Positions 46,785-51,960 of a DNA stretch of 64,000 nucleotides are shown one piece after another; the stretch's first letter is position 1, and every line of letters starts with the position of its first letter. The stretch comes from Lachnospiraceae bacterium (GTDB taxonomy: Bacteria > Bacillota > Clostridia > Lachnospirales > Lachnospiraceae). The notes under the pieces are model-generated. The model saw nothing but the letters and a program-made list of their open reading frames with translations, made no database searches and was not told the origin of the DNA. The translations under genes were made by a program, and so were the position numbers. The stretch covers positions 1-64,000 of the forward strand of contig JAFYCS010000036.1 of the NCBI GenBank assembly GCA_017539565.1. Reading direction: 5' to 3'.

Positions 46785-46866
46785 ATTGATATATATGCGC
46801 CAAAAACGCAAATGGTTACGATAGGCGGGATACTTGCCGAATAATTGTAACATTCGAAGGGCGGCT

Positions 46867-48033
46867 ATGGCAGGTAGATTTACATGGCTGGACAGGATGG
46901 AGGGGGAATCTGTCCGCGCATACGACAAGCGTATAAACGATCTGGCGGCATTCCACAGTGGTTATGCCTTTTTGTCGTATGAGAATTACTGTCCTGAGTT
47001 CTATGCCTTTGCGGTTTATACGGTGTGGAACCACGAGTTCAACCGAAAGCTTGTTAATCCCCTGCCGGAAGGCGGATTTATGATGCATTGTGATGCCCGG
47101 AGAGCAGAAGAGATGCTTTCCTGTGCTCACGGTTTTCCTGTATTTGTCAAGCTCTGTGCCAAACTGGGTAAGCTTTATGTGGAGAGCTTTGCCATGGCAG
47201 ACAAGGATGTGGTCTTTGATCTGTATTTTAACGGCTGTGATGTTAAGGCGCCGGAGGGATTGGTATTTATGGGCAACGAAGCACCGGAGCTGCTGCCTGT
47301 ACAGAAGGGCTTCTCTGTGGCAGGAGGCAGTGCCCTTCCACGTTACCATGGCAGTCACCGGAGAGGTTCATATATAAAAGCCGGAAGTGTATCCGGCAGC
47401 TATATAAAGGGCAGTTATTACCGGGCGGGTGCGGCAGCCGGAAGTTATATAAAAGGCAGTTTTTACCGGTTGGGCACGGCGTCCGGAAGCTATATGACCG
47501 GCAGTTATTACCGCTGGGGAGCAGCATCCGGAAGTTACCGCGGCGGGCTTTCTGGCAGCTACCTTTCATGGTTTTTCGGAGGCGGGAGTTATCTGAAACT
47601 TCTTTTTGGGGCCGGCAGTTACCGCAGCCGTCTTTATGGCGGCGGTTATACGGGCGGGTTTTCTGCAGGGAGCTTTACGGGAAGCAGTTTCACTGCAGGC
47701 TTTTATTATGGCAGCAGCTATGTGGGCGGCAGTTATATAAAAGGCAGCTTTGCGGGAAGAAACTTTATCGGCGGCAGCTACATCGGCGGCAGCTTTGTCA
47801 GCGGACGATTTGAAGGGAGCGGTGTCGGCGGCAGGTATTTTATGACGGGCAGCTTCTATAACGGCAGTTATCACAGGGGCAGCTTTATATACGGTGGTTT
47901 CGCGGATGTGCTGGTGGGCTCGGCGCAGCCGCCTGCAGAGAATAAAGCAGCAGAGAATGATAAAAACCACCATGAGGAGTTCGTGATAAGACGGCTCATC
48001 GAAGAACTGGGCTACGGACTGGATCTTATTTGA
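46867..48033 (+). CDS. Gly-Ser-aromatic pentapeptide-repeat protein, unrecognised family
   Basis: A 388-residue protein with no signal peptide. Residues 1-150 are a globular domain (start MAGRFTWLDRMEGESVRAYD) I cannot assign. Residues 167-345 are low in complexity but strictly periodic: Phe or Tyr occurs every fifth residue, with Gly two before and usually Ser or Gly one before, i.e. G-[SG]-[FY]-x-x. From 265 to 345 the phase is unbroken apart from one Val. This spacing equals that of pentapeptide-repeat beta-helices, whose central Leu/Phe points inward, but uses Gly in place of Ala and Ser in place of Asp/Asn. Residues 177-226 also form 15-residue blocks. The tail is acidic/His (ENDKNHHEEF). 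AAGGG precedes the ATG. The glycosyltransferase gene starts one base after the stop. Confidence 0.8.
   Translation: MAGRFTWLDRMEGESVRAYDKRINDLAAFHSGYAFLSYENYCPEFYAFAVYTVWNHEFNRKLVNPLPEGGFMMHCDARRAEEMLSCAHGFPVFVKLCAKLGKLYVESFAMADKDVVFDLYFNGCDVKAPEGLVFMGNEAPELLPVQKGFSVAGGSALPRYHGSHRRGSYIKAGSVSGSYIKGSYYRAGAAAGSYIKGSFYRLGTASGSYMTGSYYRWGAASGSYRGGLSGSYLSWFFGGGSYLKLLFGAGSYRSRLYGGGYTGGFSAGSFTGSSFTAGFYYGSSYVGGSYIKGSFAGRNFIGGSYIGGSFVSGRFEGSGVGGRYFMTGSFYNGSYHRGSFIYGGFADVLVGSAQPPAENKAAENDKNHHEEFVIRRLIEELGYGLDLI
47365..47901 (+). repeat. DNA region coding the GS[YF]xx pentapeptide repeats
   Basis: Fifteen-base periodic coding sequence, with 45-base blocks (GGAAGTTATATAAAAGGCAG and variants) around 47395-47540, implying growth by tandem duplication. 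Confidence 0.8.
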
Positions 48034-48034
48034 T

Positions 48035-48880
48035 ATGAACGGTTTTTACTCAATATGGACAAAGCCGGCAGGAAAGAACGCGCAGCGGGAGTTTGCGATG
48101 CAGGATTACGAGCTCGCGTGCCTGTTGCTTTCTGTAGCGGCTTATGAAAACTATAACGGCAGGACCAAGCTCTACGCCGATAAAACTTCAGGCGCTTTTT
48201 TTATGGAGAGAGGGCTTGATGATATCTTCTCGAGAGGTATGGAAGAATTTGAAGTGCCGGAGGATATCGATCCCAAGGTGTTCTGGGCAGCGGGAAAGCT
48301 CTGCGCACTTAAGCTCGAAGACATGCCCTCCGTTATGGTCGATACGGATCTTATCATCTGGAAAAGCCTTGGCAGGCACTTGAGGGATAAGTCTGTAGCG
48401 GTGATACACAGGGAGGAACTGAATCCCGCGATCTATTCGGACCCCGGATGTTTCCCGATGAAACGGGGGTATTCATATCCCGCAGGGTGGGATTTTAACA
48501 TACGTCCTGCCAATACGGCGATGTTATATATAAGGGATAAGGAGTTCAGGGATTACTACGTAAAAGAGTCTCTGAGATTTATGCAGAACCTTGGGCCGTC
48601 GGAGGATAATCTCTGTCCCATGGTATTTGCGGAGCAGAGGATACTGCCGATGTGTGCGGCGGCAAGAGGATTAAGCATCCATGCCTTCTGTCCGGAGATG
48701 GAGGGCTTAAGGGAGCAGGATATGTTCACGCATCTGTGGGGACATAAAAATGTGTTCAAGTTTAATATGGACGAAAGACGGGGATTCATCAGACGGTGTA
48801 TGGAACGTATGAGGAGGGAGTTCCCGGAAATGTATGAAAGAGCGGCAACACTTCCCGAGCTTAAGGAAGCAGCCGTATGA
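48035..48880 (+). CDS. GT-A-like glycosyltransferase (DUF6734-like), partner of the repeat protein
   Basis: A 281-residue soluble protein. FYSIWTKPAG at the start, RTKLYADKTSGAFF, and VMVDTDLIIWKSLG (a D-x-D motif near residue 107) resemble GT-A glycosyltransferases of the DUF6734/capsule type, where the D-x-D binds a metal-nucleotide sugar. The C-terminal part has HLWGHKN and a basic helix. The family match is by eye and moderate. It starts one base after the GS[YF] repeat gene stop and ends 13 bases before an ABC ATPase, so it may glycosylate the Ser/Tyr-rich repeats; that is inference. Confidence 0.6.
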   Translation: MNGFYSIWTKPAGKNAQREFAMQDYELACLLLSVAAYENYNGRTKLYADKTSGAFFMERGLDDIFSRGMEEFEVPEDIDPKVFWAAGKLCALKLEDMPSVMVDTDLIIWKSLGRHLRDKSVAVIHREELNPAIYSDPGCFPMKRGYSYPAGWDFNIRPANTAMLYIRDKEFRDYYVKESLRFMQNLGPSEDNLCPMVFAEQRILPMCAAARGLSIHAFCPEMEGLREQDMFTHLWGHKNVFKFNMDERRGFIRRCMERMRREFPEMYERAATLPELKEAAV

Positions 48881-48893
48881 GAGGTAAAGAGTT

Positions 48894-49862
48894 TTGCTGA
48901 AAGTAGAGAATCTGTGTAAGGCCTACGGAGGCCGCGAGATAGTAAAGGACATATCTTTCGAGACACAAAAGGGAAAGATATACGGATTCCTTGGCCCTAA
49001 CGGTGTGGGCAAATCGACCACGATGAATATGATAACCGGCTACCTGGCTCCGGGCAGCGGTGAGATACTCATCAATGATATCTCCATGATCAAGAATCCG
49101 GTTAAAGCCAAGAGGCATATAGGCTATCTTCCGGAAGTGCCGCCTTTATATCCCGATATGACCGTATCGGAATATCTGGGCTTTGCTGCCGAGTTGAAAG
49201 GTCTTGGCGGCAAGGAAAAGCGTATGGAAGTAGAGCGTGTGGAAGAGCTGTTAAGCCTTGGCTATGTTAAGCAGCATCTGATCAAGCAGATTTCCAAGGG
49301 CTATAAACAAAGGGTAGGACTGGCCCAGGCCATAACAGGCAATCCGGAACTGATAATCCTGGATGAGCCTTCTTCCGGTCTGGATCCCAGGCAGATAGTG
49401 GAGATGCGTGAGATGATCCGCCGTCTTAAAGAAGACCATACCGTTATATTCTCAACACATATATTGAGCGAGGTCAGCTCACTCTGCGATCATGTTATGA
49501 TCCTCTCCGGAGGCAGGCTGGTGGCAGACGATACGCCCGAGCATCTGGTCAAGGCGTATAACGAAAAGCAGCGCTTAAGTCTTGTGCTGAAAGGCAATGC
49601 TACGGCAGCAGAGCGTGCTATGGACAAGATCAAAGATATAGAGAGCCATAAAGTATGCAAGGAAGATTCCGACTCCTGCACCATAGAGGTTACGGCCAAA
49701 AAGGGGAAGGATGTCAGAGAGGTGCTGTCGAAGGCCTGCATAAAGGCGGGATATACCATATTAGAAATGACGGGACGTCAGGTTTCACTGGAGGAAGTTT
49801 ATCTGGAACTTACTTTCTTACGGCCCATGAAGGAGGAAGCAGAAGATGTGGGCAGTATTTAA
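48894..49862 (+). CDS. ABC transporter ATPase (GldA/NatA type)
   Basis: A 322-residue ATPase with Walker A GPNGVGKST (about residues 37-45), signature ISKGYKQRVGLAQAI, Walker B LIILDEPSSGLDP, H-loop FSTHIL and a C-terminal regulatory region ending LRPMKEEAEDVGSI. TTG is the start, nine bases after GAGAGG; a CTG follows it. It overlaps the permease gene by 17 bases. Together with that gene it resembles the GldA-GldF-GldG type of ABC system found in many non-gliding bacteria, of unknown cargo. Confidence 0.88.
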   Translation: MLKVENLCKAYGGREIVKDISFETQKGKIYGFLGPNGVGKSTTMNMITGYLAPGSGEILINDISMIKNPVKAKRHIGYLPEVPPLYPDMTVSEYLGFAAELKGLGGKEKRMEVERVEELLSLGYVKQHLIKQISKGYKQRVGLAQAITGNPELIILDEPSSGLDPRQIVEMREMIRRLKEDHTVIFSTHILSEVSSLCDHVMILSGGRLVADDTPEHLVKAYNEKQRLSLVLKGNATAAERAMDKIKDIESHKVCKEDSDSCTIEVTAKKGKDVREVLSKACIKAGYTILEMTGRQVSLEEVYLELTFLRPMKEEAEDVGSI

Positions 49863-51960
49863 AAAAGAGTGGCTTGGAAATTTCCGTAACTTAAGCGGAT
49901 GGCTGTTCCTGTCGGCAACCCTGTTCTTTATGGGGTGGTATTTCAGGTATTACGGACTGACAAACGGAATGCCGTATCTGTCATATATACTGGATGCGGT
50001 ACTGTTCATCTTTATCTTTACCATGCCCCTGATAACAATGAGGAGCTTTGCAGAGGAGAAGCGTCATCGTACAGACCAGCTGCTCTTTACCTCACCTGTT
50101 AAGCTTTGGCAGATCGTTGTCGGGAAGTATATGGCAGCAGTAGCTGTATTCCTTCCGGTATTCCCGGTCATGCTGGCGTATCCGCTTATAATGAGGATAT
50201 ACGGTGATGTACCTTTTAACGAGAATGTTCTGGCAGTAGTGGGATTCTTCTTCTTCGGTCTGGCTGCTCTGGGTATCGGCGTGTTCATATCATCACTTAC
50301 AGAGAATCAGATGATAGCGGCTGTGCTGAGCTTCTTCGTGCTCCTGTTGAGTGCAATGATCAAAGCCATATGCGGCATGATCAGCCGCGAAGGCAATCTG
50401 CTTACAGCCGTGCTTTCGATATTTGACCTTACGGGACCTTTTGATGACAGCTTATACGGCGTGCTGTACTGGCCTGATTATGTATATTATATCTCCGTAG
50501 TGGTACTGGCACTCTTTTATACGGAGCAGATACTGGCGGCAAGGCGTTTTTCCGTTAAGACCCACGGCATACCCTGGGCCCTGGTAAACACCTTGAAGAT
50601 AGTGATGGTGACGGCAGCAGTGGTTCTCGTAAACATCGGTGTGAGGGCGCTGCCTTATGACAGCAAGAGCGTCGACCTTACCTACAACGGTATCAGGTCT
50701 ATTACTGAAGAGAGCAAACTGACACTTTCCAATCTGGACCGTGCCGTGCAGATCTATGTCCTTGTGAATGATGAGGATAAGGATGAGACACTTGAAGCTA
50801 CGCTGGACCGTATGGAAGAGAGCAGCGGTTTTATCAAAGTGGATTATGTGGATCCTAAGGAGAATCCTTATTTCTATCTGGATTATACCGATGTTGAGCC
50901 TCTTTCAAACAGCATGATAGTAGTCAGCGGCAAAAAGAGCCGTGTGGTTAACTATTATGACTGCTACCAGGTAAGCTATGATTATGCTTATGATGTGAGC
51001 GAAGGCGGATATGTCACCACCGATTATCATGTTTCGGGATACGACGGTGAAGGCCGTATAATGAGTGCCATCCGCTATGTCATAAATGACCACGTACCCA
51101 AGATCTACTGCATAACCGGACATGATGAGTTTGAGCCGGACGAAGAACTCAATACGCGTATCGCGAATGCCGGTTATGATATGGAATCCATCAACCTGCT
51201 GCTGCATGAGGATATACCGGATGACGGTGATATCATCTTCATACTGGCACCGGTCAAGGATATGAACGACGATGACCTGGCAAAGATCAGACGCTTTATG
51301 GATAAGGGGAAAGCCGCACTGTTCATCACCGGATATACTGAGGGTGCGGAACTGAACAACTTCTACAGCCTGTTAAAGGACTTTGGTATGGAAGTGCTGC
51401 CCGGAGTTGTAAGTGAGGCGGATCCTGCATATTATAACGGCACGCCGGAGTTCCTGCTGCCGGAGATAATCGAGGGTGAACTCACAAGGGCCGTGTATAC
51501 CACCGGCCGTACGCGCTTTATCTACATGCCCTTCTCAAGAGGCATACGTCTTAAAGAGATAGCGGATGTGAGCGGAAGTACCTTCCTGCGCACGACTGAA
51601 AGCGCATTTATCAAGGTCGGACGAGACATGGAGAAGGGACCTTTTTCGCTGGGCATTTATACTGAGAGGTATAGTGACAGCGGTGTCAGCAGAGTGGTAA
51701 CATATACAACAGATTACTTCCTGTATAAGGATATCAATATGGCTGTTAACGGAAGCAACTACGAGCTCTTTATGAGGAGCCTGCTCAAGCTTTCTGAGAC
51801 AGAGGCGGAGGCGGATGTACCCGTTAAGCCTTACAGCTACGATCCTATACTGGTAGATCCCACGGCAAGGGGAGTCATATCCATGATACTTACCGGTGTG
51901 CTGCCCGGTGCGGCACTCCTGGTAGGCCTGGGGATCTGGTATTACCGCAGAAGGAATTAA
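49846..51960 (+). CDS. ABC-2 permease fused to GldG-like extracellular domain
   Basis: A 704-residue protein joining GldF- and GldG-like parts. Residues 1-265 are an ABC-2 permease with about six TM helices (MRSFAEEKRHRTDQLLFTSPV is the conserved cytosolic segment). Residues 270-670 form an extracellular GldG-like (PF09822-type) domain, with LPYDSKSVDLTYNGIRSI at the start and IYCITGHDEFEPDEEL in the middle. A final TM helix (GVISMILTGVLPGAALLVGL) and basic tail end it. The start overlaps the ATPase gene. It is the last gene of the repeat-protein/glycosyltransferase unit, which makes an export or cell-surface role for that unit plausible. Confidence 0.87.
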   Translation: MWAVFKKEWLGNFRNLSGWLFLSATLFFMGWYFRYYGLTNGMPYLSYILDAVLFIFIFTMPLITMRSFAEEKRHRTDQLLFTSPVKLWQIVVGKYMAAVAVFLPVFPVMLAYPLIMRIYGDVPFNENVLAVVGFFFFGLAALGIGVFISSLTENQMIAAVLSFFVLLLSAMIKAICGMISREGNLLTAVLSIFDLTGPFDDSLYGVLYWPDYVYYISVVVLALFYTEQILAARRFSVKTHGIPWALVNTLKIVMVTAAVVLVNIGVRALPYDSKSVDLTYNGIRSITEESKLTLSNLDRAVQIYVLVNDEDKDETLEATLDRMEESSGFIKVDYVDPKENPYFYLDYTDVEPLSNSMIVVSGKKSRVVNYYDCYQVSYDYAYDVSEGGYVTTDYHVSGYDGEGRIMSAIRYVINDHVPKIYCITGHDEFEPDEELNTRIANAGYDMESINLLLHEDIPDDGDIIFILAPVKDMNDDDLAKIRRFMDKGKAALFITGYTEGAELNNFYSLLKDFGMEVLPGVVSEADPAYYNGTPEFLLPEIIEGELTRAVYTTGRTRFIYMPFSRGIRLKEIADVSGSTFLRTTESAFIKVGRDMEKGPFSLGIYTERYSDSGVSRVVTYTTDYFLYKDINMAVNGSNYELFMRSLLKLSETEAEADVPVKPYSYDPILVDPTARGVISMILTGVLPGAALLVGLGIWYYRRRN

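Follow-up and report, generated by a model that had tools for sequence, protein, structure and literature searches.

Locus and Repeat Gene

The DNA analysed here, a 64,000-nucleotide stretch of contig JAFYCS010000036.1 from a Lachnospiraceae bacterium (hereafter the window), carries a gene for a protein with Gly-Ser-aromatic repeats (the repeat gene), which is followed directly by a gene for a protein of the family DUF6734 (Table 1). The repeat protein is modular: its N-terminal part varies, its core evolves fast and is rich in [G/T]-Ser-[Tyr/Phe/Trp] motifs, and it ends in GYGL[D/N/E]L[I/V]. The DUF6734 protein is predicted to be a glycogenin-like glycosyltransferase (GT), and the two genes together suggest a hitherto undescribed system for glycosylating repeat proteins. 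An earlier, sequence-only reading of the locus had described the repeat tract and left the conserved C-terminal tail and the adjoining DUF6734 gene unmentioned; its interpretation as a whole is partly supported here.

Table 1. Features of the repeat gene and the DUF6734 gene in the window.
Feature	Coordinates	Strand	Basis
Repeat protein coding sequence, 388 residues from ATG, putative substrate	46867..48033	+	Open reading frame and orthologues
N-terminal domain, residues 1-140, genus-conserved, no known family	46867..47286	+	Alignment and null family searches
Gly-Ser-aromatic repeat core, residues 165-346, period 5, putative Ser modification sites	47359..47904	+	Autocorrelation, enrichment, orthologue conservation
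Tail GYGLDLI, residues 382-388, putative recognition tag	48010..48030	+	Conservation in the genus and in a second family
DUF6734 gene, 281 residues, predicted GT8-like GT-A glycosyltransferase	48035..48880	+	One base after the repeat-gene stop

The repeat gene is present as a single copy in its genome. A TTG at 46834 offers an alternative, longer start for the open reading frame (ORF). In the two closest relatives (G012 and G032) the start MAGRF stands directly after GAAGGGCAGCT, and here it stands after GAAGGGCGGCT; three relatives are Lachnospiraceae metagenome assemblies. The ratio of nonsynonymous to synonymous substitution rates in the N-terminal domain is 0.00-0.09 in six pairs from the genus, which shows that the repeat gene is a real gene. 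In a promoter scan a single site was found, on the opposite strand, against 2.9 expected. Neither a signal peptide nor a cell-wall anchor was seen by eye in the protein, which begins MAGRFTWLDR and ends GYGLDLI.

Pairing of the Tail and the DUF6734 Gene

Among 35 genomes of the window's genus, 33 carry DUF6734, and a tail-bearing gene end lies just upstream of it in 33 of 33, a count in which the repeat gene is divided over contigs in a few genomes. Both the tail gene and DUF6734 are missing from G020 and G021, which are 72 and 81% complete. The gap between the two genes is shorter than five bases in 11 of 18 loci. All 28 complete repeat proteins of the genus end in GYG[LI][DNG]LI, and three of these carry one more Trp.

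The tail also appears specific to this gene within the genus. When the 35 genomes were scanned for GL[DN]LI, the GYG form was seen on the repeat gene only, if short copies further downstream in G013 are disregarded; with those copies and matches followed by TGG set aside, 17 other stop-ended matches were found, and none of the 16 that were read (all but one in G032) has GYG. A role of the tail as a general sorting signal is therefore unsupported. The G013 copies (L071; G013:C195:1700-2200) are two short frames between the repeat gene and the GT gene, ending in EMGYGLDLI-stop and ERGYGLDLI-stop, and seem to be local duplicates of the end of the gene.

A second family, f79, carries the GT in 50 of 87 genomes. 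In all 41 of the GT-positive genomes that were examined (30 and 11 new ones), the tail G[YF]G[LI][EDN]L[IV] and Ser-aromatic motifs were found upstream of the GT. The upstream protein ends in G[YF]GLEL[IV] at 30 of 30 loci. The tail is also present, in some cases with D or N, in each of 15 additional regions, of which 11 belong to the new genomes. The distance to the start of the GT match ranges from -1 to 7 (29 loci). In G176, for example, the gene just upstream of DUF6734 encodes a 199-residue protein with SYLTSYLTSY repeats and the end HGYGLELI. A profile of 17 f79 partners, none of them from g821, showed no similarity to the N-terminal domain of the window protein.

In a broader search, DUF6734 was detected in four of 398 genomes of the phylum, the window's own included. 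A DNA pattern for the tail and its stop (GYGL[K/N/D/E]LI and a stop codon, with Phe allowed at the Leu places and Trp at the stop) matched in six of the 398, again including the window's own, and a backward control matched in two. Two of the six matches, in G000 and G176, end long ORFs, and both of these adjoin DUF6734; two others stand before TGG and thus have no stop, and the remaining two close short frames (11 and 13 residues). In a third family, the protein upstream of the GT of G1195 ends in GSGFGGYGLELIDAR, and the other 16 genomes searched of that family have no GT. One part of this partner is weakly similar to the N-terminal domain of the window protein (hhalign E 8e-5, probability 61), and on this sequence comparison it may share that domain. 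We regard the pairing of the repeat protein with the GT as well supported.

Repeat Core and Its Ser-Aromatic Motif

The period-5 tract of Gly, Ser and aromatic residues reported by the sequence-only reading is real. Between residues 167 and 350 there are 22 aromatic pairs at lag 5, 21 at lag 10 and 24 at lag 15, where shuffles average 9.1, 9.0 and 8.7, and none of 2,000 shuffles was as high; among the remaining lags up to 20, only lag 20 is above chance (18 against 8.4). Exactly as claimed, the phase-0 centres of residues 265-345, FFFYYYFFYFFVFFYFF, are aromatic in 16 of 17 cases with one Val, and the two earlier blocks lie in other phases (phase 4 for residues 169-224 and phase 2 for 232-257). 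The expectation that homologues keep the period was borne out in most of 30 proteins of the genus, the window's own included, where the dominant spacing is 5, but not in others: the spacing is 7 in G007, G008, G025 and G033, 6 in G026, 13 in G015 and irregular in at least three (G009, G024 and G027). The f79 partners have TSY or GSY repeats with a spacing of mostly 4 (30 loci counted), and g821 partners, judged by eye, have GSYRLTS-type repeats with longer spacing. A run of 8-10 Asn residues was observed within the repeat core of G027 and G024 (L046 7995-9092).

The motif itself is kept more widely. In residues 141-374 of the window protein, Ser is followed by an aromatic residue 22 times, against 7.2 in shuffles (maximum 14 in 500), and Ser before Phe, Tyr or Trp exceeds all 500 shuffles in 28 of 30 cores of the genus. 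Summed over four close pairs (G006/G031, G006/G002, G008/G007 and G005/G029, with G006 used twice), codons had changed at 1 of 109 motif Ser and 3 of 109 motif aromatic positions, compared with 117 of 683 in the rest of the core. If the function proposed below is right, the core evolves by motif and not by fold, with the period shifting and the presumed acceptor kept.

These results bear on the family to which the protein had been assigned. It could be a pentapeptide-type beta-helix or a silk-like structural protein, with the GT as a bystander or decorator. The five-residue period and bulky centre resemble those of pentapeptide repeats (PF00805, PF01469), the period is strong here and in most of the genus proteins, and one of 20 orthologues scanned, that of G029, scores well above the cut-off of Pentapeptide_2 (PF01469, the mycobacterial PPE-type repeat; 117.7 against 26.4 bits). 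In that orthologue (L053 7499-8716) GSFN[LIT] repeats give the score, and its core is likely a drifted one. The window protein, however, matches neither family, nor any other pentapeptide hidden Markov model even at E=1, so the assignment to the pentapeptide-repeat family fails; PF00805 has no match in its genome. The spacing in relatives is 4, 6, 7, 13 or irregular, yet the tail and the GT are constant. Since the period drifts among relatives, a pentapeptide beta-helix was rejected as the conserved essence of the protein, and we consider this structural explanation quite unlikely, though the window protein alone may locally adopt a beta-helix or silk-like state.

A different explanation is a condensate scaffold, in which aromatic stickers and Gly/Ser spacers drive phase separation and the GT tunes it. 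The composition of the genus cores (Gly 22%, Ser 18%, Tyr 10% and Phe 9%) agrees with this, as does a motif that is kept while its spacing is free. Stickers, however, do not account for the Ser at -1, which in the four pairs is no less well preserved than the aromatic residue (1 against 3 changes), and the Lys/Arg count of core and linkers ranges from 2 to 34. Such a scaffold appears improbable to us.

Predicted Glycosyltransferase

The structure model of the DUF6734 protein has a predicted local distance difference test score (pLDDT) of 92, and from this model the protein is confidently predicted to be a GT-A fold glycosyltransferase resembling glycogenin and LgtC (GT8-like). In the structure comparison the scores of YeGT, LgtC and UGGT fall within about 1 Z, which is to be read as a tie. 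A profile of 20 DUF6734 proteins found no glycosyltransferase in the PDB at E<=1. A DxD motif and a C-terminal HxxGxxKPW metal/phosphate motif mark GT8. In DUF6734, both Asp residues of the DxD motif, His233 and Gly236 are invariant in 14 of 14 sequences; at the C-terminal motif a Lys follows, in a shifted register and without PW.

In the DUF6734 tree, 23 tail-linked GTs are split from two tailless ones by a branch with support 100/99, and the exact placing of the tailless proteins is unsure because their branches are long. The sequences FAEQR and THxWG are common to the tail-linked proteins (12 compared) and do not occur in the tailless ones of G1131 and Hymenobacter; no tail was found in any frame of the regions fetched around the latter two. 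Besides a typical DUF6734 protein (204 bits), the G1131 locus (L093, G1131:C16) holds an eCIS_core (PF13699) protein and one of 723 residues that has no Pfam match.

One alternative is glycogenin-like priming, in which the GT would glucosylate Tyr (or Ser) and the repeat protein would be a multi-site primer of an intracellular polysaccharide and not the end product. Against this, 215 of the 608 Ser-aromatic motifs in 30 genus proteins have Phe in place of Tyr and 9 have Trp (224 not Tyr), with Phe predominant in G005, G010 and G029. Because Tyr is so often replaced by Phe or Trp and Ser is constant, Ser is preferred over Tyr as the acceptor. The tied structure scores also speak against priming, and so does the fact that, with neighbours clustered and annotated in part, the GT is the sole neighbour found in both lineages. 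We therefore consider priming unlikely.

N-Terminal Domain, Neighboring Genes and Distribution

An uncharacterised N-terminal domain of about 150 residues had been proposed, and about 140 conserved residues were found. Searches of Pfam, NCBIfam and PHROG gave no family match for the repeat protein at E<=1, and a PDB sequence search with the N-terminal profile gave nothing convincing (best E 0.32). Actinohivin, the best PDB sequence match of the whole protein (E 0.12), was taken as chance. The domain is present in 32 of 35 genomes of the genus, the window's own included, and in 23 of 23 of good quality. Its mean column identity is 57% (21 sequences); the repeat core is by contrast poorly conserved. 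In a family sample of 397 genomes from 334 genera, it matched in its own genus only, and a class sample of 391 genomes added three matches, all weak (E 6e-4 to 0.01) and all interrupted by a stop codon.

The pair's neighbours in the window are nrdD, nrdG, a dUTPase-like gene and ATP-binding cassette (ABC) genes. The pair is followed, at 48894-51960, by genes for an ABC ATPase and for an ABC-2 permease that carries an ABC_transp_aux domain. Of 21 genus regions, 17 contain the permease cluster; the four in which it was not seen are L038, where the strand is hidden by antisense ORFs, L045, L046, and L047, which has two unclustered ORFs there. On this distribution, the downstream transporter was rejected as part of the system. 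In f79 (e.g. L095 and L143-L145), an opposite-strand gene of about 354 residues, judged by eye to be an FkbM-type methyltransferase, lies upstream of the pair in 7 of 16 regions. Pattern-based scans of viral contigs found no relative of the repeat protein or the GT, and those of phages no GT, and one distant GT was found on a Hymenobacter plasmid; a phage or mobile origin was rejected. PADLOC matched none of three proteins, and a role in anti-phage defence was dropped.

Some spore-coat proteins are Tyr-rich, of low complexity and devoid of a signal peptide, and have a GT nearby, which would suit a spore-coat glycoprotein made in the mother cell. SpoIVA is missing from 21 of 25 genomes of the genus tested, the window's own included, all of which have the repeat gene, and for this reason a spore-coat function is unlikely as the general role. 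In f79, 37 GT-positive and 17 GT-negative genomes were tested, and SpoIVA was present in 35 and 16 of them, respectively. We give this explanation hardly any credence.

Proposed Function

We propose that the repeat gene probably encodes a dedicated substrate of the adjoining GT, with the tail as its address and the Ser of the Ser-aromatic motifs as the target. The glycosylation chemistry is the part that we infer. The tail would dock the substrate protein on the GT, which, with a nucleotide sugar as donor, would then glycosylate the Ser of one Ser-aromatic motif after another. The core would be a multivalent cytoplasmic glyco-scaffold; candidates for its final role are storage, scaffolding and condensate control. 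In a more general form, for which we see the chances as evenly balanced, a cytosolic GT8-like enzyme would read GYGL[D/N/E]L[I/V] as a C-terminal address and modify whatever Ser-aromatic core precedes it, so that the N-terminal cargo and the period would be freely exchangeable in evolution, with the tag, motif and enzyme fixed. The literature searched contained no mention of DUF6734 or of GYGLELI, GYGLDLI or GYGLNLI, and no tag-guided glycosylation system of this kind was found in it; searches on glycogenin-like bacterial enzymes, on pentapeptide or low-complexity proteins and on condensates, judged from their listings, likewise returned nothing on such a system.

Several observations weigh against this proposal. 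Adjacency and a modelled fold may suggest, and do not prove, that the repeat protein is the acceptor. The structure matches of DUF6734 also take in the GT domains of the effector or toxin proteins SetA and PaTox, and the fold alone therefore cannot fix the acceptor. DUF6734 occurs without a tailed partner in G1131 and on the Hymenobacter plasmid. In G1195, the partner's tail has three extra residues and there is a single Ser-aromatic motif; the GT ORF is short and its end is overlapped by a transposase ORF judged by eye to be of IS30 type (L094 2962-4675), so that this pair may be decaying. In the cores of G009 and G015 Ser-aromatic motifs are no more enriched than in shuffles. Of 30 f79 cores, just 12 lie above every one of 500 shuffles, the motifs there being few. 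Tyr makes up 152 of 199 f79 motifs; a Tyr acceptor is therefore possible in that family, and the argument for Ser is weaker. More diverged pairs changed more often, at 3 of 13 Ser and 3 of 13 aromatic positions in G027/G024 and at 1 of 22 Ser and 5 of 21 aromatic positions in G000/G012. The rates of motif change are moreover biased low because repeat alignment favours matching motifs, and the sums do not take in five f79 pairs, the region bounds being unsuited to those shorter proteins.

Should the proposal hold, one clade of a domain of unknown function would gain a role, and a two-gene modification system would be present in 23 of 23 good-quality genomes of one genus and in 50 of 87 genomes of the second family. 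The short, portable C-terminal tag and the simple Ser-aromatic sequon would then be useful for protein engineering.

Comparison With Known Systems

Glycogenin modifies itself. The proposed system would differ from GT8 enzymes such as glycogenin and LgtC in its likely acceptor, a separate protein that bears a tag. Serine-rich repeat adhesins have a dedicated cytosolic Gtf, with GT genes nearby. The proposed O-glycosylation of Ser in a repeat protein and the nearby GT gene recall these adhesins; the Ser-aromatic repeats and the C-terminal tag set the window protein apart, and with no signal peptide or anchor seen by eye and no accessory Sec genes among the window neighbours, it does not fit the adhesin system. 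Those adhesins are reported to be O-glycosylated on Ser/Thr of the repeat protein and are surface proteins exported by the accessory Sec system (PMC6973325).

A further parallel is offered by the autotransporters AIDA-I and TibA, which are modified by the heptosyltransferases AAH and TibC. In passages on that system, Ser and not Thr residues were identified as the sites, and TibC was described as a dodecameric heptosyltransferase acting on autotransporters (PMC4358343). Both systems would rely on a dedicated enzyme that modifies Ser residues of its partner, as proposed here, and they would differ in the enzyme, which in the window is predicted to be GT8-like.
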